Source: Sulfuricurvum sp.
GTDB lineage: Bacteria > Campylobacterota > Campylobacteria > Campylobacterales > Sulfurimonadaceae
Direction of reading: 5' to 3'
Length of the DNA stretch: 64,000 bases
Assembly (NCBI GenBank): GCA_030696775.1
Contig: JAUYRN010000012.1
Coordinates: forward strand, 191,426 to 255,425
In this document: positions 4,447 to 54,060 of the stretch, piece after piece
How positions within the stretch are numbered: position 1 is the first letter of the stretch
Layout: each line of letters opens with the position of its first letter
The notes under the pieces: generated by a model
Seen by the model: the letters and a program-made list of their open reading frames with translations, nothing else
The model's database searches: none
Told to the model about the DNA's origin: nothing
Made by a program: the position numbers and the translations under genes

Positions 4447-5802
4447 TTATTGTTTCCTTCTTTGCAGGATTAAAATCTCTTCTTTTAACAATTTTGATAC
4501 TTTTTCAATACCGGCTGATTTTTCCATCAAAAGTCGATTTTCAGAATAAAAACTTCCTCCCATTTTTTGCATTGTTTCAATCTCATGCGAGGTTTGCTGT
4601 ACCAACGTTTTGAGCTGTGAGAAGATAACTTGAAACCGTGCGGACTCATCTTGACTTGCAGCAGCTTCGATAATGCCATAAATTTGAACGTAGCCCAAAT
4701 ACATCATTTGCTGTTCGAGCTGATTTAGATTAGTCAGTGTCTCTTGAATTTTTATCTCAAGCTGTGCTTGAACCGCATTTAACTTATCCGTATAGTTTAT
4801 GACCAAAACGACTAAATCGTTCATATTATTCACTATCTCATCCATCCCAGATTTATCGCATTTGTGCAATACTTCTTCTAAAAAAAAGAGCACCATCTCA
4901 ATTTGCAGTCGTATGGCGGAAACAGAAAAAATTACCTCGTTAAGTAAAAGCGTTATCATCTCAACATTACTATGAATCTGATCGATTAGTGCATCATTTT
5001 CTTTTGCATTAATCCGAATATCGCGAGCAAGGACACCAAATGTTTCGCCACCATTTTCGATTTTATAGGACGATACCGAGGCATTGAGTGACAAAAAGAC
5101 GATCTCACGGGCAAGTAAACGCAAGACCAGACCTTTTTCTTCAAACATCGACTTTACTTGGCTAAACATCTCTATTTTATCAAACCAGCTGTCGTACTCT
5201 TTCATGAGCGTCTTACTGTGACTGTAAGCCAAGGTCAAAGGAGATTCACTCTGCGATTCATCTTTTGAAGGAGAAATGACCTTTTGTCGCTCTTGCAACT
5301 CCTGGAGTAAAACCTCACTCATAAAGTGATCATACGATGTGTATCCTAGCTCACTTAATAGTTGTGGAAAGAGTGTAGCACTGGCTTCAACATTCTCTTT
5401 TGTTTCTGCCATCAATAATTTAAAATAGAGCTCTTTTGCTGCTGCGAAGAGCGTGCTGTTGGGTTTAATTCGAATCGAAACATAGCGGTCATCGAGAGGA
5501 AAAACGACCGCTAAAACCCAATAGTATCCCCCCTCTTTTGTTTTGTTTTTCACATACGCCACAATCGGTTTACCCGCTTGCAAATACTCCCAAAATGTTT
5601 TAAAAATAATTTTAGGCATATCTGGATGGCGGATAATGTTATGAAAACTTCCGATTAATTCGTCTTTTCTATAGCCGCTTATTCGAATAAATACTTCATT
5701 TCCGGAACGAATCGTACTGTCTTGATTGGTAATCGAAAAAAAGAGCTCATTGATGTCGAATTTGGCCTCTTTAAGTGTCATAGCAGTTTGTAGTTTCTCC
5801 AT
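4447..5802 (-). CDS. Aer-like PAS protein with degenerate MCP-type signalling region
   Basis: 451 aa. Residues about 15-130 form an Aer-type PAS domain (DSTIRSGNEVFIRISGY, HNIIRHPDMP, GGYYWVLAVVFPL), the kind that often binds FAD or another redox cofactor. There is no membrane segment. The middle contains IVFLSLNASVSSYKIENGG followed by FGVLARDIRINAKEND, which aligns by eye with the MCP hairpin tip (LALNAAIEAARAGE...GFAVVADEVR), but the conserved IEAARAGE block is lost. The C-terminus is long coiled coil. It was probably an energy-taxis receptor and is now diverged. It starts 10 bases after cheR. Confidence 0.8.
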   Translation of the reverse strand: MEKLQTAMTLKEAKFDINELFFSITNQDSTIRSGNEVFIRISGYRKDELIGSFHNIIRHPDMPKIIFKTFWEYLQAGKPIVAYVKNKTKEGGYYWVLAVVFPLDDRYVSIRIKPNSTLFAAAKELYFKLLMAETKENVEASATLFPQLLSELGYTSYDHFMSEVLLQELQERQKVISPSKDESQSESPLTLAYSHSKTLMKEYDSWFDKIEMFSQVKSMFEEKGLVLRLLAREIVFLSLNASVSSYKIENGGETFGVLARDIRINAKENDALIDQIHSNVEMITLLLNEVIFSVSAIRLQIEMVLFFLEEVLHKCDKSGMDEIVNNMNDLVVLVINYTDKLNAVQAQLEIKIQETLTNLNQLEQQMMYLGYVQIYGIIEAAASQDESARFQVIFSQLKTLVQQTSHEIETMQKMGGSFYSENRLLMEKSAGIEKVSKLLKEEILILQRRKQ

Positions 5803-11762: not shown

Positions 11763-13031
11763 TTAAAGCAGCTCTAACTTATACAAAAATAATCGTTCTT
11801 TGTACGATGGAACATCAAGTTCTTGACGGTATTTAGCGATCAAACGACGCACCATTTTTACACCAAACCGCTCTTCAATCATCTCATGCAGTGTCTTATC
11901 GCTAAAGGGATCGTCTTTGTTTTCACTCAAAACAAGCCGTTTCAAAAAGTGTTTAATCTCTGAAGTCGATACTTCTCCGATGCAATTCGAGAAAAAATCT
12001 TTAAAGGGATACAACCCTCGCTCAGTTTGCATATATTTATCCGAAATTGCTCTGGAAATCGTCGATTCATTAAAGCCTAACTCATCAGCGACATCTTGGA
12101 GACGAAGCGGTTTGAGATCTCCTCCCATAAAAAAGCTGTACTGTTTCTCGATTAACACCAATGCGACATTATAAAGGGTTGCTTTACGCAAATCGAGAAG
12201 TTTGACGAGTTCACGTGCCTCTTTGAATTTTTGTTTGGCAAAATTGTCGTACTTATCAATCATATTGACTTTCAAATCGGGATAAAAAGTATGATTAATC
12301 CGAATATTCAACTCCGACCCCGAGAACTCGACAAACAAATCAGGAACAATTTGCGTTTCTGGCTCCATATACTCTAATGCCGGAGGATTTTTGAGATGCT
12401 GCAGCACATGCTTGGCATCTCCAAAACGAGGATTCTTGATAAATTTTTCCATCTTATCGAACTGCAAAATCATAGCAGAGAGCAAAATGCTCAAATCGTC
12501 ATCGAGTTCATAATCATTGAGCTGAAACAAAAAGGATTCTTTGTAATCACATGCTCCAACCCCTGATGGTTCCAAGTGCGCGAACCGCTGACGTACACGC
12601 TCAACCGTATGAGAATCCGTATCGCATTGCTGGGCAATCTCTTCCACACTTCCCTCGAAGTATCCTTCATCACTGATGTAATAAATAATTTGTCGAGCAA
12701 TTTTTTGAGATATTGGTGTTGGAAAAAGCGGTGCAACGATCTGTTCATCCAGTTTTTCATACAAAGAAGTCGAAGAGATACTAAGCCATTCGATTTGATC
12801 ACTCGAAGCATTCGAAACATAGTTTTGAAAAGCACCATACGCCGATGCCCCTCCTGCTTGTGCATTCGATTCTTCAAAGCCCGATTTCATCTCAATACAA
12901 GGATTTTCATTGGTAATGACTTGTAAATGTTTTTCTAAATCATTCAAGGAACATTGCAACAATGGAAGCCATGTCTGCATCGAAAGTCGTGGAAGTTGTT
13001 TTTGTTTATAAGAGAGAGTTGTTTGCATCAT
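11763..13031 (-). CDS. rpoN: RNA polymerase sigma-54 factor RpoN
   Basis: 422 aa. Region I begins with an activator-interacting segment (LSMQTWLPLLQCSLNDLEKHL, ITNENPCIE) typical of RpoN. The core-binding domain is in the middle (DEGYFEGSVEEIAQ, RFAHLEPSGVGACD). Near the end are the DNA-binding helix (VADELGFNESTISRAISDKYMQT) and a divergent RpoN box (VRRLIAKYRQ against the usual ARRTVAKYRE). Sigma-54 serves flagellar and nif promoters in related bacteria, and both kinds of gene flank it here. AGGTGG precedes two adjacent ATGs (13031, 13028). A TATAAT at 13090-13095 (minus strand) may be its -10. Confidence 0.93.
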   Translation of the reverse strand: MMQTTLSYKQKQLPRLSMQTWLPLLQCSLNDLEKHLQVITNENPCIEMKSGFEESNAQAGGASAYGAFQNYVSNASSDQIEWLSISSTSLYEKLDEQIVAPLFPTPISQKIARQIIYYISDEGYFEGSVEEIAQQCDTDSHTVERVRQRFAHLEPSGVGACDYKESFLFQLNDYELDDDLSILLSAMILQFDKMEKFIKNPRFGDAKHVLQHLKNPPALEYMEPETQIVPDLFVEFSGSELNIRINHTFYPDLKVNMIDKYDNFAKQKFKEARELVKLLDLRKATLYNVALVLIEKQYSFFMGGDLKPLRLQDVADELGFNESTISRAISDKYMQTERGLYPFKDFFSNCIGEVSTSEIKHFLKRLVLSENKDDPFSDKTLHEMIEERFGVKMVRRLIAKYRQELDVPSYKERLFLYKLELL

Positions 13032-34720: not shown

Positions 34721-35089
34721 GAGACTTAGTAAAAAAGTTCTCTCTTCTTCTGGAATAAGAGCAATATTCCCTTCATGTGTCAAATGCACTAGTTGTATTT
34801 CCATCACAAAGAGTTTTTCTTCGTCACGATAAACGCTCTGAAGCAGAGTAAACGAAGCATTTTTAATACTTTTTAAAGCCGTCTTAACCTCTAATAGATC
34901 ACCAAATTTCGCACTTTTCAAATAATCGGCTTCAATATGTTTCGCCACGAAATGTCCACCCTCCAAGATCGGTGAACGTCCCGCATCAAAAAAAAGTTGA
35001 CTACGTGCCCGCTCGCAAAAGTTTAAATAATTGGAGTGATAAACAACACCGCCAACGTCTGTATCTTCATAATATACTCGAATATTCAT
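34715..35089 (-). CDS. ybgC: Acyl-CoA thioesterase YbgC (4-hydroxybenzoyl-CoA thioesterase family)
   Basis: 124 aa, hotdog fold. RVYYEDTDVGGVVYHSNYLN carries the catalytic Asp region and is followed by FCERARSQLFF. The normal YbgC start is complete. The gene's ATG overlaps the integrase stop of the mobile element (ATGA), and its ribosome site (AGGGG) lies within the integrase 3' end. That suggests that integration occurred precisely at the ybgC start and left the protein intact. Confidence 0.92.
   Translation of the reverse strand: MNIRVYYEDTDVGGVVYHSNYLNFCERARSQLFFDAGRSPILEGGHFVAKHIEADYLKSAKFGDLLEVKTALKSIKNASFTLLQSVYRDEEKLFVMEIQLVHLTHEGNIALIPEEERTFLLSLS
35081..35089 (-). repeat. Candidate att core, left copy (ATGAATATT)
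   Basis: The first nine bases of ybgC. The integrase gene ends on it. A match lies at 48910-48918 in the same orientation. Nine bases is short and chance matches are possible. Confidence 0.35.
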
Positions 35090-36294
35090 CCTGCTATCCC
35101 CTGTGTATCGGCATTTGAGCCGGTATTTTCTTTTGGTGTGACAAAAAGTGTGACAAACTGGCTAAGAAACAGTTCTCTTTCGTTTTCATCTTTTGGAACG
35201 AACTTCGCATATTTTTGAAGCGTAATTTGAATATTAGAATGCCCCATTGTTTTTGAAATCCATCCTATATCAATTTTTTTTGCAAGCATTTGAGATGCAA
35301 ACGTGTGTCTTGTATTATAAATATTACGCTGAGCAACACCTATGTTTTTCAAAAGCAATTTAAACCGAGTATTCAAAAAGTCTGGGCTATGCCATGCTTT
35401 TCCCCATCGATTCAAAAAAACCTTTCCATTTTTTAAACCAGTTTCCAAAAATTGAGACCGCAAAGCTTCTTCAACTTGTGGAAGCATGTCAGCTGATCTG
35501 TTGGATGCAATAGTTTTAGGTTTTCCTATAATATAACCACCGCTACCACTTCGTTTAGTGGTTTTTGATACCTTGATTTTTTTAGTATCGAAACAAATAT
35601 CCGACCAATCCAAAGCAACCGCTTCACCGGGCCTAATCCCTGAAAAAATTGAAAACTGCAAGAAGCATTTAAATTGCCCTTTTGCATTTTTTAAAATCAG
35701 AGAAATTTCATTTTCAGAGAATGGAAGCATCTCTGTACGGAATACTTTCGCATTTGTATTTTTAGGAAGCTTGACCTTTGAGACGGGATTCTCAGATATA
35801 AGCCCATCTCGCCAAGCATCATCCAAAATGTGATTTAGCACACCTCGATATTTTTTAATTGTTCCGAGACTTAAACGTTCAGCAAGTCTGTTTTGCCATT
35901 CTCTGATTTCACTCGGCTGAAGTGAATTGATTTTTCTCGAACCAAAATATGGCAAGATGTCACGCTCTAGAATTTGCTGTTTTGCTTCCAAAACATGCCC
36001 TTCGACATCGTATTTTTGTAAAGCGATACTTCGTTCCGCATAGTCAGCAAAAATTGGTGTTTTTGGTGCTTGAATTTTTAGAGCAATAGGATCAATTTTT
36101 CGACCTGTAAGCTCCAAATAAAGCTTCGGTAAAATCTCACTTTTGATTGATTCCAAATTCTCAGACGTGGCTTTCATTTCCATTGAGGGTCGCTGTCGCT
36201 GACCATCGTAAAGAAAATCAAGTTTCCAAATTCCCTTTATATTGCGAATTGTAAAAACTAGATCTCCAAATTGACATTTGTAATTATTTTTCAA
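35086..36294 (-). CDS. int: Tyrosine-type site-specific integrase
   Basis: 402 aa. Arm-binding N-terminal domain (DLVFTIRNIKGIWKLDFLYDG), core-binding SAM-like domain (LQPSEIREWQNRLAERLSLG), and the catalytic domain from about 190 with Arg in SGIRPGEAVALDW, His-x-x-Arg region YNTRHTFASQ, MGHSNIQITLQKY (His and the nucleophile Tyr). All catalytic residues appear present. As in lambda-type elements, the 3' end of int lies at the attachment site and an excisionase-like gene is directly upstream, overlapping by 4 bases. Confidence 0.92.
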   Translation of the reverse strand: MKNNYKCQFGDLVFTIRNIKGIWKLDFLYDGQRQRPSMEMKATSENLESIKSEILPKLYLELTGRKIDPIALKIQAPKTPIFADYAERSIALQKYDVEGHVLEAKQQILERDILPYFGSRKINSLQPSEIREWQNRLAERLSLGTIKKYRGVLNHILDDAWRDGLISENPVSKVKLPKNTNAKVFRTEMLPFSENEISLILKNAKGQFKCFLQFSIFSGIRPGEAVALDWSDICFDTKKIKVSKTTKRSGSGGYIIGKPKTIASNRSADMLPQVEEALRSQFLETGLKNGKVFLNRWGKAWHSPDFLNTRFKLLLKNIGVAQRNIYNTRHTFASQMLAKKIDIGWISKTMGHSNIQITLQKYAKFVPKDENERELFLSQFVTLFVTPKENTGSNADTQGIAG

Positions 36295-38263: not shown

Positions 38264-41200
38264 TTAAAGGGCGAACATTTTGCTCTTAACAATCTCACTA
38301 ACGATTGAACCATCACCTTCTTTAAAAATCAAACTGAGTGCGTGGCCTCCTTGCTGTTGAGGGTGTTGATGGAATCCTGTAAATCGTTCAAGACTTTCAT
38401 TAGCCTGCTTAAAAACTCTTCCAGATCCATCAAGGGCGAGCTCCCACCCGACCCGCTGGAGATGTCTTTTAGCATTGTGTAAATCGCATCCGTCGTTGAT
38501 TGGAGATTTTCCAGCGACGTGGTGTTGCTTTGTATTTGCTGCTCCATTGGCACGATCGCTTGGGCGATTATGTTTATTGATTGCATGATTTGATTCATCT
38601 GCAGTGACTGCTCTCGCGTTGTTGGGTCTTCTTTCATTTTGGATCCCTTGTATTGTTTTTCGAAGAGTTGAGTGCTTAGATTTCTCATCCTCTACACATA
38701 TACGAAATTTGACTGCATCATTTACAAAAAACTGTAAATTTTTCTTTGCCCTTGTGATCTGAACATAGAAAGATTCGCGTGATGATCGTTGAGAATGGGC
38801 TGCAACAATTACATTTTTGGAGGTTTTTCCTTGCGCTTTGACGTCGCTGATGCAATATGAATAATCCAAATAAGGGTATTCATTCATATCGATAGTGATA
38901 GACTTTCCCTGCTTCTTAATAGTGAGAACATCTCCGTTAATCGCTGTAATAATTCCAGTTTGACCATTTTTAACGTTCAATTGCTTATTGTTTCGTCCAA
39001 ACAAAATTCGCTCACCGATAGCAATCTTCTTTTTATGCTGATTAAACACAGAAATCATGGCTGCTGATTGGGAGAGTGCAATGGTATGAATTGAAGTATC
39101 TTCTTTTTGGACGGTGATGGTGTTGGCTTTTTTGTCGGTACTTACGATGACCCCCTGTTCTCCATTTTTACCAATAATCCCTTGCCTATTAGCAATAATC
39201 ATTTGTCCCAGTGCGTAGTTTTGAGCAAAAAGTTTATCGACATCGTTTATGTCAACTGAGCTGAGGATATTGAGTAGTCGTTCATCCTTAATTGCACCGG
39301 TTTCAAGCATCTTATGACGCACCAAGTGATTGAGTGCGTTACGTTCCTTGTTTGTGCTGGCAATCATCAAAGTCTCATTTTGATTGCTTTTCAAATACGC
39401 TGCTGCAATTGCATTGAGTCGCATTTCATCATCTTCAATGGATTGAACCATATTGTATTTGTTAATTATGTCAAACGCTTTGGTATAGTCAAGATGCATA
39501 TTGATGGACGCTACGGCATTAATTAATGATTCTTCTGTTTGGCGCATTACTTCAGGCATATGGGAAAATTCCATAGCTTGTAGCTGCTTCAGATCAGTAA
39601 AGATTGTGCCTGCACTTATTGATTGATACTGTTTAATATCACCGACCAAGACGATTTGAGCGTTTTCAGACAGTGCTCGATCGATGACTTGATTTAGGAG
39701 TTTGCTACCAACCATTGAGGCTTCGTCGATTATCCAAATTTTCTTTTTATTGCTAATGTTTGGTGTGGAGTTGGAGGCTAAAAAACCGTGGATTGTTGTG
39801 GATTTTATTCCGCTTTCTTTCTCAAGTTCATCAGCTGCTGCGCCTGTGAATGCAACTCCTTGAAACTCTATTTCATCAGATGCAATCTTTTTTGCCCACT
39901 TGAGCATAAAAGTTTTACCACTACCTGCATTGCCCTGTATTCCTATGTATTGATCAGATGTTGTGAGGATATGAGTTAATGCTTCTTGCTGACCGATTGT
40001 TAGGCCTTTGTCACTGATAGCTATAGTGATTTCATCCTCGGTATAAATAGGTTCAAAAGTATTTTTACCTTGCATTATTTTTTGAATGATGTCGTTTTCA
40101 AGCTTGTAGAATGCATTGGTGGTGATAGAAGTATCAGTGAATCGGATTAGGTCCTGATGTTTATCTATTGCAGTTTCAATCTCGGCAATCTGTATGGTTT
40201 TATTATTGCCATGTGTGAGGCTCAATACTGCTTTGAGGAGATCTTCGTAGGAAAAACACGCTTGCTTCTCATTGAGCGCACCGGCTGCCTCTGTAACAAT
40301 GGCGTTTAGCTCGTTTTTTGTAATAAAAACTGTACGCGCAGAAGGGTTTAAATAGCTTTCTAATTGATCGGTATCAAAGCCAAATCGCTCTTCAACGTCT
40401 GCTACAAATTCTGTGAGTATCTCATCAATGTTTCGCTTGCTTTTTTGAGGGCGATGTAAGCGCTTTATGGGCTCTTTCTCAGCATAGGTTAACTCACGTC
40501 CCAGTTTCTCTTCATGGAGCTTGTAGGCCTTTTCAATGCTCTTGGTTCGTGAGCTATAGTACTCAGTGATGATAGGGTTGAAACCTTTGATGCCAAAGGT
40601 TCCTTTTTTATAATCGGTGATTTGCGTTTGAAGTCCGATTTTATGAAGCTCAAGAGCTAAATTAGTATGCCAAATTTGATGAAAGAGGTCTTGGTTTTTA
40701 AAGATGCGGAAGTTTTCTAAAGCGCGATGTTCTCCATTTTTATCAATAACCATATTATAGATGAAATTGTGAGTGTGAAAATGCATTTCATCCAACCTGT
40801 TAATTTGATGATCGAACGCAGCAGCGATAAGATTGCCAGATTTAGTGAACTTTGTTTGCTTGTTTTTAGTGATTCGGCAACCAGCGTACCTCTCGATAAA
40901 AGCCAAAGTATTGGCAACTGCTGTGTCGTGAGCGGTTTGGAGTTTTTGGGCTAGAGGATGATTTTTACTTTGTGCATAACCGCGCATAATTGAGACGTCT
41001 TTAGGATCTGCCATGGTGATGTCGAACCCTGCAACGTGTTTCTCGCCAGCTCCTTGAGCGACCAGTTGCTCTGAGCCATATTGACCATTACAGAGCATTG
41101 TGTGCAGTTGATAGCTGTCTGGCGTGATAGGTGTTTTATTGAGTCCCATAATGAGGGCAGCCTTCCCATGAAAGTAACCCAATGTTTGAGAACTACCAAG

Positions 41201-41272
41201 ATAATAATTCATGTCTTTTTGAAAATACTGATCAGCTTGATCTGCAACTTGTGGTTCTGACATTGTGAGCAT
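38264..41272 (-). CDS. MOBF conjugative relaxase-helicase (TrwC/TraI type)
   Basis: 1002 aa from the ATG at 41272 (AGGAG six bases upstream). The N-terminal relaxase domain has the catalytic tyrosine region DQYFQKDMNYYLG, GFDITMADPKDVSIM (the PKSVS motif) and the three-His metal site DEMHFHTHNFIYNMV. The C-terminal RecD-like helicase has Walker A GIQGNAGSGKTFMLKW, Walker B IWIIDEASMVG, and later VQITRAKKNLQFF. It nicks oriT and unwinds the transferred strand. The recognisable helicase ends near residue 870. The last ~120 residues, oddly rich in His, Asn and Arg, are read in a different frame from the nested gene 38329-38637. Confidence 0.92.
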   Translation of the reverse strand: MLTMSEPQVADQADQYFQKDMNYYLGSSQTLGYFHGKAALIMGLNKTPITPDSYQLHTMLCNGQYGSEQLVAQGAGEKHVAGFDITMADPKDVSIMRGYAQSKNHPLAQKLQTAHDTAVANTLAFIERYAGCRITKNKQTKFTKSGNLIAAAFDHQINRLDEMHFHTHNFIYNMVIDKNGEHRALENFRIFKNQDLFHQIWHTNLALELHKIGLQTQITDYKKGTFGIKGFNPIITEYYSSRTKSIEKAYKLHEEKLGRELTYAEKEPIKRLHRPQKSKRNIDEILTEFVADVEERFGFDTDQLESYLNPSARTVFITKNELNAIVTEAAGALNEKQACFSYEDLLKAVLSLTHGNNKTIQIAEIETAIDKHQDLIRFTDTSITTNAFYKLENDIIQKIMQGKNTFEPIYTEDEITIAISDKGLTIGQQEALTHILTTSDQYIGIQGNAGSGKTFMLKWAKKIASDEIEFQGVAFTGAAADELEKESGIKSTTIHGFLASNSTPNISNKKKIWIIDEASMVGSKLLNQVIDRALSENAQIVLVGDIKQYQSISAGTIFTDLKQLQAMEFSHMPEVMRQTEESLINAVASINMHLDYTKAFDIINKYNMVQSIEDDEMRLNAIAAAYLKSNQNETLMIASTNKERNALNHLVRHKMLETGAIKDERLLNILSSVDINDVDKLFAQNYALGQMIIANRQGIIGKNGEQGVIVSTDKKANTITVQKEDTSIHTIALSQSAAMISVFNQHKKKIAIGERILFGRNNKQLNVKNGQTGIITAINGDVLTIKKQGKSITIDMNEYPYLDYSYCISDVKAQGKTSKNVIVAAHSQRSSRESFYVQITRAKKNLQFFVNDAVKFRICVEDEKSKHSTLRKTIQGIQNERRPNNARAVTADESNHAINKHNRPSDRANGAANTKQHHVAGKSPINDGCDLHNAKRHLQRVGWELALDGSGRVFKQANESLERFTGFHQHPQQQGGHALSLIFKEGDGSIVSEIVKSKMFAL
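38329..38637 (-). CDS. Nested gene in the relaxase 3' end (coiled-coil protein)
   Basis: 102 aa from the ATG at 38637, with AAGGGA six bases upstream. The protein is a regular amphipathic helix (MNQIMQSINIIAQAIVPMEQ, TTSLENLQSTTDAIYTMLKD, EEFLSRLMKVLNDLQDSINT), much more protein-like than the relaxase frame over the same bases. A copy of the element's 20-bp motif lies 62 bases upstream (38699-38718), as before two other units. Same strand, different frame, wholly inside the relaxase coding region. A role as transfer accessory protein is a guess. Confidence 0.6.
   Translation of the reverse strand: MKEDPTTREQSLQMNQIMQSINIIAQAIVPMEQQIQSNTTSLENLQSTTDAIYTMLKDISSGSGGSSPLMDLEEFLSRLMKVLNDLQDSINTLNSKEATHSV
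38699..38718 (-). promoter_or_regulatory. Element motif copy a (TATACGAAATTTGACTGCAT)
   Basis: Plus-strand TATACGAAATTTGACTGCAT, differing from copy c at two of twenty positions. It stands upstream (minus strand) of the nested gene, inside the relaxase coding sequence. Confidence 0.6.
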
Positions 41273-41315: not shown

Positions 41316-41335
41316 TATACGAAAAAAGGATGCAC
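41316..41335 (-). promoter_or_regulatory. Element motif copy b, upstream of the relaxase
   Basis: Plus-strand TATACGAAAAAAGGATGCAC, preceded by CCTTACCTC as copy c is preceded by CCTTACCTG. It is 44 bases before the relaxase ATG. Likely an operator or a promoter part of the transfer genes. Confidence 0.6.
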
Positions 41336-42668: not shown

Positions 42669-43339
42669 TGGTTTTCTCCTGTTTTGGTATTTGTGTTATT
42701 TGAAGTATGATAGAGAGCGTTGTAGTCGACACGGACTTTAAGTGTATCGATAGAGCTTGATTCGATACGAAGTGCTTGATCTTGAACCATCTGTAGCAAT
42801 ACAGACTGTTCTGATGTCGCGAAGTACGGTGTTGGTAGCCAAGTGACGAAGCTAAGCAAATACAAGGTTACTGCGCCTGCAACAAATCCTCCTCCAGCAA
42901 CCGCCGCGACAAGCTTCCTATTAATACTGGGGATCTCTTCCGCATCTCTAGCCAATGCATCAATCCGAGAATGGACTTCATCTAAAAGATCATTTGTTTT
43001 TTCAATAGCAAGATCCGACTTTTTGTGCGCATCATTGGCTGATTGTATATATTTACCAATTCGCTCCATCGAATTCACTACTGCAGTCATTTTTCTAAAA
43101 AGAATTTCCTCAAAGCTTTTATCCATACTTGAATAATCAAATCCAAGCATCGCTCCTTCAATCTTATACATTCCATGTTTCATGGAGTCATCAAAACGTT
43201 TTGACGCGTTTTCAAGACGTCCTATTAAACGTTCCGAATCCGGAAAACGTTCATGTAATTGCCTAAGAGCAATAATCAGATACTCTACTTGATTGGTGAG
43301 ATCTTGAATGTCTCCAACAGTCATCTTTTCTAAGCTCAT
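42665..43339 (-). CDS. Membrane-anchored coiled-coil protein of the Stb-like operon
   Basis: 224 aa. Long helical N-terminal part (TNQVEYLIIALRQLHERFPD, DLAIEKTNDLLDEVHSRIDA), one membrane helix at about 142-165 (KLVAAVAGGGFVAGAVTLYL), and a short C-terminal segment. This is the first gene of the unit with the ParA-like ATPase. Motif copy c (43390-43409) lies 51 bases before its start. It could anchor the ATPase to the membrane. Confidence 0.65.
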   Translation of the reverse strand: MSLEKMTVGDIQDLTNQVEYLIIALRQLHERFPDSERLIGRLENASKRFDDSMKHGMYKIEGAMLGFDYSSMDKSFEEILFRKMTAVVNSMERIGKYIQSANDAHKKSDLAIEKTNDLLDEVHSRIDALARDAEEIPSINRKLVAAVAGGGFVAGAVTLYLLSFVTWLPTPYFATSEQSVLLQMVQDQALRIESSSIDTLKVRVDYNALYHTSNNTNTKTGENQ

Positions 43340-43389: not shown

Positions 43390-43409
43390 TATACGAAATT
43401 TGTTTGCAT
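43390..43409 (-). promoter_or_regulatory. Element motif copy c, upstream of the Stb-like operon
   Basis: Plus-strand TATACGAAATTTGTTTGCAT, preceded by CCTTACCTG. It is 18 of 20 identical to copy a. Confidence 0.6.
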
Positions 43410-43479
43410 GAAATTGGAAAATGGGTTGAATTTTTGTGATTTGGTTGGGGAATTAGTGAAATTTGTTTGAATGATTTGA
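43407..43479. repeat. Second TTGA/GTGA repeat array
   Basis: TTGA or GTGA at 43426, 43436, 43456, 43467 and 43476, with TTGG at 43445 between them: again close to a 10-bp period. It is a looser copy of the oriT-proximal array, placed upstream of the Stb-like operon next to motif c. It is plausibly bound by the same protein for autoregulation or partition. Confidence 0.5.
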
Positions 43480-43775: not shown

Positions 43776-44314
43776 TCATTGTCCTTTTTAATCCTTGGCT
43801 CAGATGATAGGATATTTTTAACAATATCTCCTCCAGTGTCTCGCAGGATATTAGCCGCCGCATAGTCAATTGCTTCTTGTCTTGTCATCGGGGTTGGCAG
43901 TATGGTAATTGAGATGGCATTATCGATCAAAGCATTTCCCATGATCTGACAGTAATAGGCAATGCAAGGAGTACTGTTTAATAGATCTTGATGTTGAATT
44001 AATGCTTTAGGCGCTCGGGTAAAGAGAAACACATCAAACTCTCCCTGAAGGATTTCAAACACATAAGTTGAATTGAGCGTATACAGTGTCAACCTCTTCC
44101 CATCAAGCGCATAGTCTTTCAACATACTGGTGCGAAACGTCTCATCACGATCTCTTCCATACCAGTAGGCTTGGGTATTCACATACAACGATCCCGTGAT
44201 ACCCTGATAATGAGACATACCATGGTTAGTGGTGGAGCGTAAAACAGCACGGAGTTCTCCCTCGCGAAGCTGTGAATCAAGCGTTTTATTGGTGTATTTC
44301 GTTGGTTTATTCAT
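43772..44314 (-). CDS. Hypothetical protein between the phosphoesterase and cyclotransferase genes
   Basis: 180 aa from the ATG at 44314 (AGGA seven bases upstream). Mixed alpha/beta with HYQGITGSLYVNTQAYWYGR, LTLYTLNSTYVFEILQGEFD and FTRAPKALIQHQDLL. No known domain recognised. It overlaps the metallophosphoesterase by 8 bases and the cyclotransferase-like gene by 4, so all four genes (two phosphoesterases, this, cyclotransferase) form one translated unit. Confidence 0.6.
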   Translation of the reverse strand: MNKPTKYTNKTLDSQLREGELRAVLRSTTNHGMSHYQGITGSLYVNTQAYWYGRDRDETFRTSMLKDYALDGKRLTLYTLNSTYVFEILQGEFDVFLFTRAPKALIQHQDLLNSTPCIAYYCQIMGNALIDNAISITILPTPMTRQEAIDYAAANILRDTGGDIVKNILSSEPRIKKDNE

Positions 44315-45191
44315 TGGTAGTTCCTGCTGATATTTTTTTAGCAATCTCTATTCTCTTGTCTTTCACATTCCTATTTTCCCCAGGGTAGCCAAGAGGATTG
44401 ACGATCATCTGAACACCATACCATTCATAATCATTCGCGGTATGGGTATGACCGTAGATCCATACTTTTGCTGTGGTAGTGCTGACGTATTTCTCACCAT
44501 CATAGGTGAAGAATGACGTTGAATCATCCTTTCGATAATGTTGATCCGGAATGTGTTCAGGCTTGATTGAGGGGCTTATATGAGTGATCATCACATCGCA
44601 CTCTTGATACGTTGCCTCGATCTTTGGTTTCTCTATTTCCCACAGTTCATCGAAGTGTTTTAGATTGGGCATATAGGCTGCGTCGTTCATCACATACTTC
44701 CATGATCTGCGAACATCATCGATACTGCTCTTAAAATGGGGGTTAAGATTATGCAGCTTATATTGGCCGTCATACCACGAATCACACCCGCCAAATCGAA
44801 CTCCCTCGATCTCTACAACAGTACCATTCAAACAATGAACCCCATCGATTGAATTGAGCATCTCCCTCATCTCTTGGGCACGGTTATAGCTGTTCATATC
44901 ATAATCATCCAAGGCTATTCGATTGATAAGATAGTAATCGTGATTGCCCAACACGCAGACAATATTTTTAAAATACAGTTCCCGCAAAAATCCGATGATC
45001 TTTGCGCTCTCTGCGTTGTAATGCCCCAAGTCTCCCGCGATAACCAAGACATCAGAAGGCTCAACCTTTACACCCTCCACTATTGGAGTGAATATTGGAT
45101 CAAAAAACTTTTGTACTTCTTCTTTGGTTTGTTTAAACGACTTGAAATAAAAATCCAAATGAAGATCAGATAGAATCGATACGGTTAACAT
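44307..45191 (-). CDS. Calcineurin-type metallophosphoesterase 1
   Basis: 294 aa. The dimetal motifs are all there: SILSDLHLDFYF (D-x-H), VIAGDLGHYNAE (G-D-x-x-H), CVLGNHDYY (G-N-H-D), MITHISPS and IYGHTHTAN (G-H-x-H). It is clearly paralogous to the gene directly upstream, with which it shares LGNHDYYLI and the EGVRFGG/WYDG block. Substrate unknown: it could be nucleotide, RNA cap-like dinucleotide or protein phosphate. Overlap with the upstream gene 7 bases. Confidence 0.85.
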   Translation of the reverse strand: MLTVSILSDLHLDFYFKSFKQTKEEVQKFFDPIFTPIVEGVKVEPSDVLVIAGDLGHYNAESAKIIGFLRELYFKNIVCVLGNHDYYLINRIALDDYDMNSYNRAQEMREMLNSIDGVHCLNGTVVEIEGVRFGGCDSWYDGQYKLHNLNPHFKSSIDDVRRSWKYVMNDAAYMPNLKHFDELWEIEKPKIEATYQECDVMITHISPSIKPEHIPDQHYRKDDSTSFFTYDGEKYVSTTTAKVWIYGHTHTANDYEWYGVQMIVNPLGYPGENRNVKDKRIEIAKKISAGTTNE

Positions 45192-46147
45192 GGTGTGTCC
45201 TTTTTATGTTGTGTAATTTCCGGTGGCGTGTATTCAAACACTTTGATCGTTGTCTCCCCTATTCCTTTATTCTTCTTATCGGGATAGCCCATACTGTTGC
45301 AAAGGATTTGTACTTCATTTTTATCTTCACGGATAAACTTGCGCTCAAAGCTTCGATGGGTATGTCCAAACAGCCAATACTTCATGCTACCGTTTTCTAA
45401 AAGTTGTTTACCATCAAAGCAGTAGAAGGCACGATAATCTTGTAACGCTTCGTGGGTGGAGTTGTAGCTTTTGTAAAAACCTGCCAGTGGTTTTTGATAG
45501 TTGTACATCTGGGCGAACTGATTCCATTCACTTAAGGGTGATACATGCGTCATCATGATGTCACAGTGCTGATACACGTTTTCCATATGATGCTTTTGCT
45601 CTTGAAACAGGGTATCAAACTTTGCTCCGTTGTTAGCGTTGGGATAGATCATGTTGGCATCGTTCATTTGCAATCTCCACTCCCAGTTGACATCATCATA
45701 ACTCTTACCGGCATTTAGCAACAGTGAGCCATCGTACCAGCCGCTTGCTCCTCCTATACGAACACCCTCGATATCCACGATATTGCCATCAACGTAATCA
45801 ATTCCCTCTTCTTTCGCTATAAGAAGTTTCATTTCAGCAATACGTTCACGGCTTCCGCCAAGGCGATTGGTTCCATATTGATAGTTGCTTACCATACTCT
45901 TTGAGATGAGATAATAGTCGTGATTGCCGAAGGTCACGACGATACGGCTATAGTATCGTTTCAGGTGACGCAAGCATTGGATGTTTTGCGCATTATAGTG
46001 CCCGATGTCGCCGGGGATTAATAGGACGTCCGCTGGTGCATTGTCCAGTAAGGTTTTAAACTTGGCGTCAAACGCTCGTGCGCTTACGACACTATTAGGA
46101 TTAAAGTAAAAGTCGAAGTGTGTATCTCCGAGGATGGCGAATTTCAT
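45185..46147 (-). CDS. Calcineurin-type metallophosphoesterase 2
   Basis: 320 aa. Motifs AILGDTHFDFYF, LIPGDIGHYNAQ, VTFGNHDYYLI, IMMTHVSPLSEWN, LFGHTHRSFER. Start after AAGGAACACC. It is a tandem paralog of the 294-aa protein. The block around GGASGWYDG and the spacing of the metal motifs are conserved, but surface loops differ. The pair may have split substrates or form a heterodimer. Confidence 0.85.
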   Translation of the reverse strand: MKFAILGDTHFDFYFNPNSVVSARAFDAKFKTLLDNAPADVLLIPGDIGHYNAQNIQCLRHLKRYYSRIVVTFGNHDYYLISKSMVSNYQYGTNRLGGSRERIAEMKLLIAKEEGIDYVDGNIVDIEGVRIGGASGWYDGSLLLNAGKSYDDVNWEWRLQMNDANMIYPNANNGAKFDTLFQEQKHHMENVYQHCDIMMTHVSPLSEWNQFAQMYNYQKPLAGFYKSYNSTHEALQDYRAFYCFDGKQLLENGSMKYWLFGHTHRSFERKFIREDKNEVQILCNSMGYPDKKNKGIGETTIKVFEYTPPEITQHKKDTPC

Positions 46148-46174: not shown

Positions 46175-47734
46175 CTAGGCGTACTTCACCTTGAACTTAA
46201 TGTCTCTGTCTTCCTCTTTTTGCTGATCATAATCGTTGAGTGCAAAAAGTGCTTTAAAATAGTTATTCAGTCGTTCCTCTTGATTAGGGATTTCAAACTG
46301 GTAATGGACATGTCTTTCTTCTTTTGTATTGATATTACGAAAGATTAGCATTCTTGAAATATCATAGAACAGATGATCATAAACCATAAGTTCTGCTTTA
46401 CTGGTTTGATAAGCAGCATAGTGACCGTGCATCTCTTGGTAGAGAATCTCTGTTACATCAAGCTCCTTCTCCTCAAAGAATATGGCGTTCCTTTGCATAT
46501 TGGAACAACTAATCTCATCGTAGGCTTTAAAAACACCAGCTTTTTCGGACTGACCGTTAAAGCAAATTTGAGTTTTAAAGTTTTGTTTCATGGAGCTCCA
46601 GGTAATCTCACCCATTTTACGAATCATCTGCTCATCATTTTGGATAGACATGACGACTTCTACTTTGCTTTCACGCAAGATATCAGTACGGATGTCATTG
46701 CCATTGCCTAGGACTCGGTTGGCTTCGTCGATGACGATTGCAACAGGGAGCGGATCTTTATGCTTGGCACGTAAGGATAAAAAGTCCAGTGTCTTGTCTA
46801 GTATTACAGAGAGGACCGGAGCCGTAAATGACTCGCTATTGATAACAACAATCTTCCCCTCATTGAGTAATCCTGCAATGTCGTGTGAGTTTGGCTCATT
46901 ACAGTAAGGGTTTTTCATAAAGCCTGAGATGGAGGCTTGGATCATGAAAAGCATTCCGTTAAATCCTGACGCCTCTGTCGTATCTTGTTTTACTTTGGAA
47001 CCTTTAATCGTCTCTACAATTTCTTCAAGCTCATAGACTAAAGCATCAAAGTCGGTGAGCTTTTTACGCGCAAGAAGTGTTGTTAAACCCATTTCATGAA
47101 GACACACAACAACTTGTTTTTTAATGTCATCTACGTATTTTTGTGCGGTGCCGATAAGCATGATGTAATTTTTCAGCTTTTTTACATAGCGTCCAAACTC
47201 CCGCATGGTTAGAGGCTCAAGCGGGATATCAAGATGATACGTTACATCTTTGTCGGGTGCTGTCTGAGACATAACGGTAGTGGTAATACCAAACTCTTCG
47301 CGTGCGTATTTATGAAGGGCTTTAAGACGCATTAAGAATGTCGAAAGATCCACAAACAATGCAACCCCGCCATCACTCCAAAAGGGATCACTTGCATCTT
47401 TGATAATGGAGCGGGCAAACTTTTCAACTTGTTTCTCGGACATATTGGAAAAGAGATTGATCTTAGCTCCATGAGGTTTACCGATTTCTACCACATCAGC
47501 TAATCTTTCATGTTTATGCGCAAGGTTTTTAACCACACGGTGCTCTTTGGCTTTTTCATCAAAGATCAACATTCCATATCCCGCTTTAATACGACTCTCT
47601 AAAACAGGGTTGATTCCACAGGTGGTTTTACCATCACCCGTTTTTCCACTAAAAAGAGTATGTTCGAAACGACCAAATGAGTCTGAAACGGTAGTATTGG
47701 ACGATTGAGTGGCTAAAAATCCCATTGTTTTCAT
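46175..47734 (-). CDS. Coupling-protein-type ATPase (VirD4/TraD-like, soluble)
   Basis: 519 aa. Walker A FSGKTGDGKTTCGINP near residue 30 and Walker B PVAIVIDEANRVLGNG near 330, with FKTQICFNGQS and the EVVMSIQNDEQMI sensor-like region, fit the TraD/TraG/VirD4 family. No N-terminal membrane helices are seen, unlike normal coupling proteins, so it may act soluble or recruit a helper channel. It is the main ORF of the conjugation unit driven by the promoter at 48080-48108. SD AAGGAC before ATG. Confidence 0.75.
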   Translation of the reverse strand: MKTMGFLATQSSNTTVSDSFGRFEHTLFSGKTGDGKTTCGINPVLESRIKAGYGMLIFDEKAKEHRVVKNLAHKHERLADVVEIGKPHGAKINLFSNMSEKQVEKFARSIIKDASDPFWSDGGVALFVDLSTFLMRLKALHKYAREEFGITTTVMSQTAPDKDVTYHLDIPLEPLTMREFGRYVKKLKNYIMLIGTAQKYVDDIKKQVVVCLHEMGLTTLLARKKLTDFDALVYELEEIVETIKGSKVKQDTTEASGFNGMLFMIQASISGFMKNPYCNEPNSHDIAGLLNEGKIVVINSESFTAPVLSVILDKTLDFLSLRAKHKDPLPVAIVIDEANRVLGNGNDIRTDILRESKVEVVMSIQNDEQMIRKMGEITWSSMKQNFKTQICFNGQSEKAGVFKAYDEISCSNMQRNAIFFEEKELDVTEILYQEMHGHYAAYQTSKAELMVYDHLFYDISRMLIFRNINTKEERHVHYQFEIPNQEERLNNYFKALFALNDYDQQKEEDRDIKFKVKYA

Positions 47735-52526: not shown

Positions 52527-53474
52527 CTATTGTCGTCCCGCTTTTTTCAAATCTTCTAACACATCCGGAGCAACCTGTTCTAGGTATTCTCTCGGATAGC
52601 TACCAGTCCATAGTCCTTTTAAATATCCTTTGACCGAAATAGCCGAAGCGTATACAAAATCAAGAATAAAGAACATGATCAAAACACTGGCACCAAAGTG
52701 CAAATAGAGCAATACGCGTCTAAATTGGATCACGTCGGCATGGGTTAATGAACTCGGATGCAATGTAATAATCATCGCACCACTGAAACAAAGACCTGCC
52801 CCCATAGCTGCATAGAAAAACCAAATAACACGTTTTGAAGGTTTAAAACTTCCCGGCAAAATATGTCGGAATAAAGTATTTTTTCTCCAGCCTTTTAAAT
52901 CTTTAGCTGCAATAACGGTAAAAACAAGCCAAACACCAATCCATGCCAAACCGGTCAGTTCATGAAACTCTCTCAAAAGACGAGGAAGATCTCCCCCATC
53001 AGAGCGTAAACTCCATGTAATATTGAATCCGGTAAGTACCAGCATCAAAATCATCCCGATATTAAGCCAAATAACCGTACGTTGGAACGGGGTCAAAACT
53101 TGAACCATGTCATCTGGACGTGTTATAGTAGGAGTGAGCCGACCATTTTTAACGTACAAAAAGACAAAAATCATAATTTCGGCAAAAAAGACATACCAGA
53201 TGTATTCTTGTCGCTCATTGCTCGCACGAATAATTTCAGGAGCAACACTGTTGTATGCCGGACCGAAAGCAGCGTTCACCATCTGTTCCAACTCCGAAGC
53301 TGGTGCAGTAAGCACTCCGCTTGTATCACCAATCATCATATGCATCGTATATTGGATCAGGTAACCCCAATCCATAATCATCATGAATCCGACAAATACG
53401 AATCCAACTACACCAAGTCCAAGAGCCGTTAGAATATAGGCTTTATTACACTCCCAAAAAGTTTTACTTTCCAT
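52527..53474 (-). CDS. fdhC: Formate dehydrogenase cytochrome b subunit FdhC (gamma)
   Basis: 315 aa. Five or so membrane helices with His residues for haem: AYILTALGLGVVGFVFVGFM, FQRTVIWLNIGMILMLVLTG, LLREFHELTGLAWIGVWLVF, LLYLHFGASVLIMFFILDFV. It takes electrons from FdhB to the quinone pool. The N-terminal ~100 residues include a periplasmic loop. It overlaps fdhB by 11 bases. Confidence 0.92.
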   Translation of the reverse strand: MESKTFWECNKAYILTALGLGVVGFVFVGFMMIMDWGYLIQYTMHMMIGDTSGVLTAPASELEQMVNAAFGPAYNSVAPEIIRASNERQEYIWYVFFAEIMIFVFLYVKNGRLTPTITRPDDMVQVLTPFQRTVIWLNIGMILMLVLTGFNITWSLRSDGGDLPRLLREFHELTGLAWIGVWLVFTVIAAKDLKGWRKNTLFRHILPGSFKPSKRVIWFFYAAMGAGLCFSGAMIITLHPSSLTHADVIQFRRVLLYLHFGASVLIMFFILDFVYASAISVKGYLKGLWTGSYPREYLEQVAPDVLEDLKKAGRQ

Positions 53475-54060
53475 TGTTGTATGCCTCCCATCCGTATGGT
53501 TTTAACGATGTATTACCACCGCGTTTAGCCGTACGATACTCGTAGATCTTATCGACTTCGGAAGCATCACCGGCGATGAGTGCTTTGGTTGAACACATTG
53601 ATGCACACATCGGAATTTTTCCCTCGGCAATACGATTTTGACCATAATGTTCAAACTCTGTTTCGCTGAGTGTATCATCCGGACCGCCCGCGCAAAAGGT
53701 ACATTTATCCATAACACCTTTGACACCGAAGATACCTTCATGACCAAACTGCGGAGCACCGAACGGACATGCGTAAAGACAATATCCGCATCCGATACAT
53801 TTATCTTTATCATGCAATACGATACCATCCGTTCGGATATAAAAACAATCCGTCGGACATACTTTTTGACACGGTGCATCCGAACAATGCATGCATGCCA
53901 CAGAGAGAGATTTTTGTTTGCCTTCAATCCCCTCGTTGATAGTGATAACCCGTCGGCGATTCACGCCAACAGGAATTTCATGTGCCTCTTTGCACGCGAC
54001 GACACATCCGTTACAATCGATGCATCGGTAATCGTCACAATAAAATTTCATACGTGTCAT
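53464..54060 (-). CDS. fdhB: Formate dehydrogenase iron-sulfur subunit FdhB (beta)
   Basis: 198 aa, four [4Fe-4S] motifs: CIDCNGCVVACKEAH, CMHCSDAPCQKVCP, CIGCGYCLYACPFG, CTFCAGG. It has the ferredoxin-like electron wire between FdhA and FdhC. There is no C-terminal membrane anchor. It follows fdhA after 13 bases and is transcribed with fdhC. Confidence 0.95.
   Translation of the reverse strand: MTRMKFYCDDYRCIDCNGCVVACKEAHEIPVGVNRRRVITINEGIEGKQKSLSVACMHCSDAPCQKVCPTDCFYIRTDGIVLHDKDKCIGCGYCLYACPFGAPQFGHEGIFGVKGVMDKCTFCAGGPDDTLSETEFEHYGQNRIAEGKIPMCASMCSTKALIAGDASEVDKIYEYRTAKRGGNTSLKPYGWEAYNNGK

Follow-up and report, generated by a model that had tools for sequence, protein, structure and literature searches.

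A probable separately translated gene overlapping the 3' end of a MOBF relaxase gene in Sulfuricurvum, with same-place counterparts in other Campylobacterota

Does the 3' end of a conjugative relaxase gene encode two proteins at once, and what would the smaller one do? The question is raised by a stretch of 64,000 nucleotides from Sulfuricurvum sp. (contig JAUYRN010000012.1, positions 191,426 to 255,425; here called the window), in which a relaxase gene on the minus strand (38264..41272) encloses a small open reading frame in another frame (38329..38637, minus strand). We regard this ORF as probably a genuine gene, translated separately from bases that it has in common with the relaxase 3' end, both frames being used, and its product would most likely be a relaxosome helper. 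Relaxase genes with a helper gene nested inside them are already established (RP4 traH and RSF1010 mobB are such helpers), having been described in a few plasmids of the MOBP and MOBQ classes. New here is that MOBF relaxases from several families of a single phylum repeatedly show the nested layout, in some cases with a TraH-type gene, and that annotation easily misses such genes; a literature search of incomplete coverage returned no earlier description of a gene nested in a relaxase of this class.

The host gene encodes a MOBF/TrwC-type relaxase-helicase of 1002 aa, assigned by Pfam, NCBIfam and its relatives: a TrwC relaxase domain (Pfam E 4e-50) is followed by an SF1 helicase domain (AAA_30, E 8e-43), and the protein scores 157 bits against the NCBIfam MobF model, which has a cut-off of 100. 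Helicase motif VI (YVQITRAK) lies at about aa 835 and the likeness to relatives extends to about aa 870-905, so that the nested gene begins near the end of the conserved relaxase sequence. The relaxase frame reads through the nested gene and terminates 62 nt beyond the nested stop. The nearest relative of the window relaxase is only about 36% identical over the relaxase; initial scans of genome contigs and viral sequences with this relaxase alone gave no match, and the distant helicase-type matches of an alignment-based viral scan were set aside. Arg-rich or -ER C-termini, perhaps a transfer signal, are common among the relaxases of other loci (L006, L015, L024, L026, L027, L033, L035, and L037), and the window relaxase ends without one.

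The nested ORF (102 codons plus stop) lies wholly within the relaxase ORF, one base ahead of its frame (+1), and starts 43 codons past motif VI with an ATG preceded by AAGGGA (38644..38649, minus strand), a Shine-Dalgarno-like site with equivalents in nearly all relatives. Translation and coordinates thus bear out the frame as the earlier note had described it, and an alternative in-frame ATG upstream, at 38688, would give 119 aa. A regular coiled coil had been read from its translation; the product is acidic (pI 4.4), coiled-coil-like and free of cysteine, and AlphaFold predicts two helices (residues 5-61 and 68-100, mean pLDDT 84), while the relaxase residues encoded by the same bases are basic (pI 9.8). 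A homologue of the protein was not found in 100 relatives, viral contigs or plasmids; the search against plasmid proteins that had been proposed as a check (tblastn, 72,556 plasmid records) yielded no match at E<=1. Weak matches in G083 (E about 5e-4, within frames of 675-686 aa) were set aside as chance coiled-coil matches, and the Pfam and NCBIfam matches of the nested proteins were far under cut-off and reflect coiled-coil composition. Compared with the nested proteins of other loci, the window protein reaches z values of -0.4 to 4.2 against shuffles, a range that coiled-coil composition could give.

Taken from the window alone, the case for the nested gene is moderate, and the comparative evidence is much stronger. 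When the relaxase residues are held fixed and synonymous codons are redrawn, the +1 frame is open in about 7-11% of redraws; when the nested protein is held fixed, the relaxase frame is open in just 0.04-0.16%. Codon likelihood places both window frames above their shadows, and we do not treat this as decisive for dual coding, as much of the signal is the absence of stops: with stop codons left out, the result is only suggestive, both frames ranking at about the 95th percentile among shadow frames and the 1st among true ones. Such percentiles, midway between coding and non-coding, match the expectation for two competing constraints and are suggestive, short of proof. The GC content at nested position 3 in the overlap (0.62-0.63) is also as dual constraint predicts. 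Two other window genes (11763-13031 and 53464-54060) contain embedded +1 ATG ORFs of about 125 aa, and long embedded frames can be chance.

Relatives of the relaxase were searched for in Campylobacterota genomes and in a collection of named genomes, where two loci belong to Sulfurospirillum and Sulfurovum. Many distant Campylobacterota MOBF relaxases contain a +1-frame ORF that starts about 42-75 codons past helicase motif VI (loci L005, L013, L024-L026, L027-L032, L033-L036, and L043), and nearly all of these same-place ORFs are preceded by a strong GGAG- or AGGA-type Shine-Dalgarno sequence. Among +1 ORFs of at least 35 aa, 15 of the 23 in relaxase tails have a strong site, against 4 of the 42 in relaxase bodies, and the +2 frame of the tails holds no ORF of this length. 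The nested coiled-coil products are all acidic (pI 4.4-5.7), and the overlapping relaxase residues are basic at all coiled-coil loci except L024 and L026. The window gene fits this set by position, +1 frame, start site, and acidic helical product. The nested ORFs of L005/L035, L013/L036, L024/L026, L025/L027, and L033 share these features and a MOBF host with the window gene, but differ from it in having no demonstrable sequence homology with its protein, and several of the sub-families are barely related among themselves. A comparable ORF was not found in long-tailed Campylobacterota relaxases such as L009-L011, nor in the small panel of MOBF relaxases examined from outside the phylum, which comprised six from Moraxella, Acidovorax, Alcaligenes, and cyanobacteria together with several from further phyla. 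In other phyla, such relaxases mostly lack a nested gene and stop 60-100 aa beyond motif VI.

Selection on the two frames was compared by counting substitutions at relaxase codon positions 1, 2, and 3 in the core and in the overlap of alignable pairs of relatives; the test covers the relatives' copies, the window copy having no close relative. Position 3 takes most of the changes in the relaxase core. Within the overlap, the changes shift to relaxase position 1 (equal to nested position 3), and nested position 2 mostly has the fewest. The shift is seen in L024/L026 (113, 65, and 212 changes at the three positions in the core against 31, 20, and 11 in the overlap, p 6e-7), L029/L030 (14, 8, and 79 against 7, 5, and 0, p 2e-7), L005/L035 (158, 107, and 245 against 32, 18, and 16, p 0.001), L013/L036 (p 0.0005), and L027/L030, with pairs within the L027-L032 group being mutually non-independent; in L033/L034, a very close pair, changes are too few for a pattern to show. 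Over the shared bases, the nested proteins are also more alike than the relaxase residues (51 vs 33% identity in L005/L035, 58 vs 44 in L024/L026, 55 vs 28 in L013/L036, and 39 vs 16 in L025/L027). Because overlap substitutions fall at nested position 3 and nested identity exceeds relaxase identity, the nested frame is, on this comparison of relatives, the more constrained of the two. The codon-position comparison that the earlier note had called for thus speaks for the nested gene, and together with the same-place ORFs it makes the claim of a real coding frame well supported, by way of the relatives.

The same shift of substitutions can be read in another way, namely that the nested gene is real and the last 120 or so relaxase residues are functionless and run passively over a downstream gene. 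The lower conservation of these residues and the habit of MOBF relaxases in other phyla of ending soon after motif VI agree with such a passive tail. However, every lineage keeps the relaxase frame open over the nested gene, and the probability of that given the nested protein is 0-0.0064 at all loci but L036 (0.045); at L025, moreover, the relaxase is longer and has the nested ORF at its 3' end, tail and nested gene having been kept together despite a large extra domain region upstream. An open frame in every lineage against such low odds favors dual coding over passive read-through, which we therefore hold to be unlikely. Of the two possibilities that had been left standing for the tail, true dual coding is on this evidence most likely and a mere out-of-frame extension is disfavored.

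The absence of a homologue of the nested protein, the appreciable share of redraws in which the +1 frame is open, and the two other embedded ORFs of similar length would all be expected if the ORFs of the relatives were real and that of the window a chance open frame. This we consider distinctly doubtful, since the ORF sits where those of the relatives do, is equipped with a start site and an upstream element motif, encodes an acidic product of two predicted helices, and has the nested-position-3 GC content that dual constraint would give. Far less probable still is a frameshift near 38640, whether programmed or a sequencing error, that would make the nested frame the true relaxase C-terminus. 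As the nested frame is already open at 38688, a shift ahead of 38637 would be possible, but the nested ORFs of relatives share the +1 relation, a start codon, and mostly a strong Shine-Dalgarno site; the relaxase frame stays open beyond the nested stop in each relative with a nested ORF, and a sequencing error cannot recur across unrelated genomes.

If the nested ORF is a separate gene, known systems close to it in layout are the nested transfer genes of plasmids. The +1 ORF nested in the relaxase gene of R751 we take, from its place, to be TraH. In RP4, the acidic protein TraH is read from a different frame of traI and stabilises the TraI-TraJ complex at oriT (PMC7314908). Like the genes of the IncP plasmids RP4 and R751, the window gene is a small +1 gene in the 3' half of a relaxase gene (checked for R751) with an acidic product; unlike them, it has a MOBF rather than a MOBP host, and its protein shows no sequence similarity to TraH and lacks the C-terminal C..CP..W...C.C...CD module of the family. 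The window protein is best seen as a positional and probably, by analogy, a functional analogue of TraH, and not as a member of the TraH family. In RSF1010, mobB is a transfer helper gene nested in another frame in mobA/repB (PMC2200642). The window gene resembles it as an other-frame gene inside a relaxase gene, but differs in relaxase class, and its protein shows no similarity to MobB or to any other protein encoded in the plasmid records searched by tblastn (72,556 records, E<=1). The RSF1010 relaxase belongs to class MOBQ. ColE1 MobB and MobD are accessory mobilisation genes that overlap mobA in other frames; the window gene likewise overlaps a relaxase gene and differs in relaxase class.

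The Cys module itself does occur in MOBF relatives (L006, L007, L033, and L034). TraH-type genes with this module lie in the +1 frame of the MOBF relaxase tails at L033 (954-1259), L006 (1257-1505), and L007 (1299-1541), all on the minus strand, and L033 holds two nested genes, one of TraH type and one coiled-coil gene. The module of the second L033 ORF and of L006 and L007 is common to the +1 gene nested in MOBP relaxases of R751 and of Pasteurella and Campylobacter plasmids, and the TraH-type genes of L133, L134, L136, L138, and L139 also lie in the +1 frame within large ORFs. The L033 Cys-module protein is matched by 903 plasmid records. Nested traH-type genes at L042 (R751, 5103-5495), L041 (3836-4234), and L040 (4019-4288) are absent from the PLSDB gene tables, which are incomplete.

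Nested states lie scattered across the relaxase tree. The relaxase of L013 is close to those of L006 and L007, which carry the TraH type, whereas its nested gene is of the coiled-coil type and similar (55% identity) to the one in the distant L036, a pattern which suggests that the relaxase 3' end may have been exchanged as a module. The window relaxase forms a long branch, and its nested gene may therefore be of independent origin. A broader reading, possible but on balance unlikely, is that the MOBF relaxase 3' end constitutes an exchangeable dual-coding cassette, with a basic tail and an acidic binding partner encoded one frame on, of which TraH-type and coiled-coil versions have been swapped. 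The recurrence suggests that helper genes have been overprinted repeatedly at the relaxase 3' end, and the repeated arrangement in related mobile elements suggests a hidden DNA-transfer helper protein. The MOBF nested genes thus offer a natural system for the study of dual coding and would add an overlooked component to conjugation.

For the window element, we envisage that the relaxase is translated through the nested gene, ending just beyond the nested stop, while ribosomes initiating at the nested ATG would produce the small acidic helical protein. This protein may self-associate or bind the basic relaxase tail, and could stabilise the relaxase at the origin of transfer or pass it to the coupling protein, in the way that TraH acts on TraI and TraJ in RP4. 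A candidate coupling protein with a weak match to the TraG-D_C domain (Pfam E 9e-5) is encoded upstream of the relaxase (46175..47734, minus strand).

Expression of the nested gene may be tied to that of its neighbors by an element motif, TGCAGTCAAATTTCGTATA, which occurs within the relaxase gene, 62 nt ahead of the nested start codon (38699..38717, minus strand). Exact matches also lie upstream of the relaxase start (41316..41334, minus strand) and upstream of a 224-aa gene starting at 43339 (43390..43408, minus strand). The 20-bp motif that had been noticed ahead of the nested gene and of two other units is thus real: TGCANNCNNWTTTCGTATA matches exactly at just three sites of the 2.55-Mb genome, each of them within this element on the gene strand, although the pattern was built from these three copies and the count is therefore post hoc. 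All remaining matches need two mismatches, and at up to two mismatches the pattern has 17 matches in all, against 19 for a backwards control pattern. TGCA..C and TTTCGTATA are common to both gene-preceding copies and the internal one, which lies in coding sequence. The motif is, judged from its placement, probably a promoter or operator of the element, and would probably let the element express the nested gene, the relaxase and the 224-aa gene unit together; a scan for consensus sigma-70 promoters performed no better than chance and did not have the motif site among its predictions. A partial further copy of TGCANNCNNWTTTCGTATA is present near 43458. The element also encodes a tyrosine recombinase of the phage integrase family (35086..36294, minus strand; Pfam), and two adjoining calcineurin-like phosphoesterase genes (44307-46147) lie in the same element as the relaxase.
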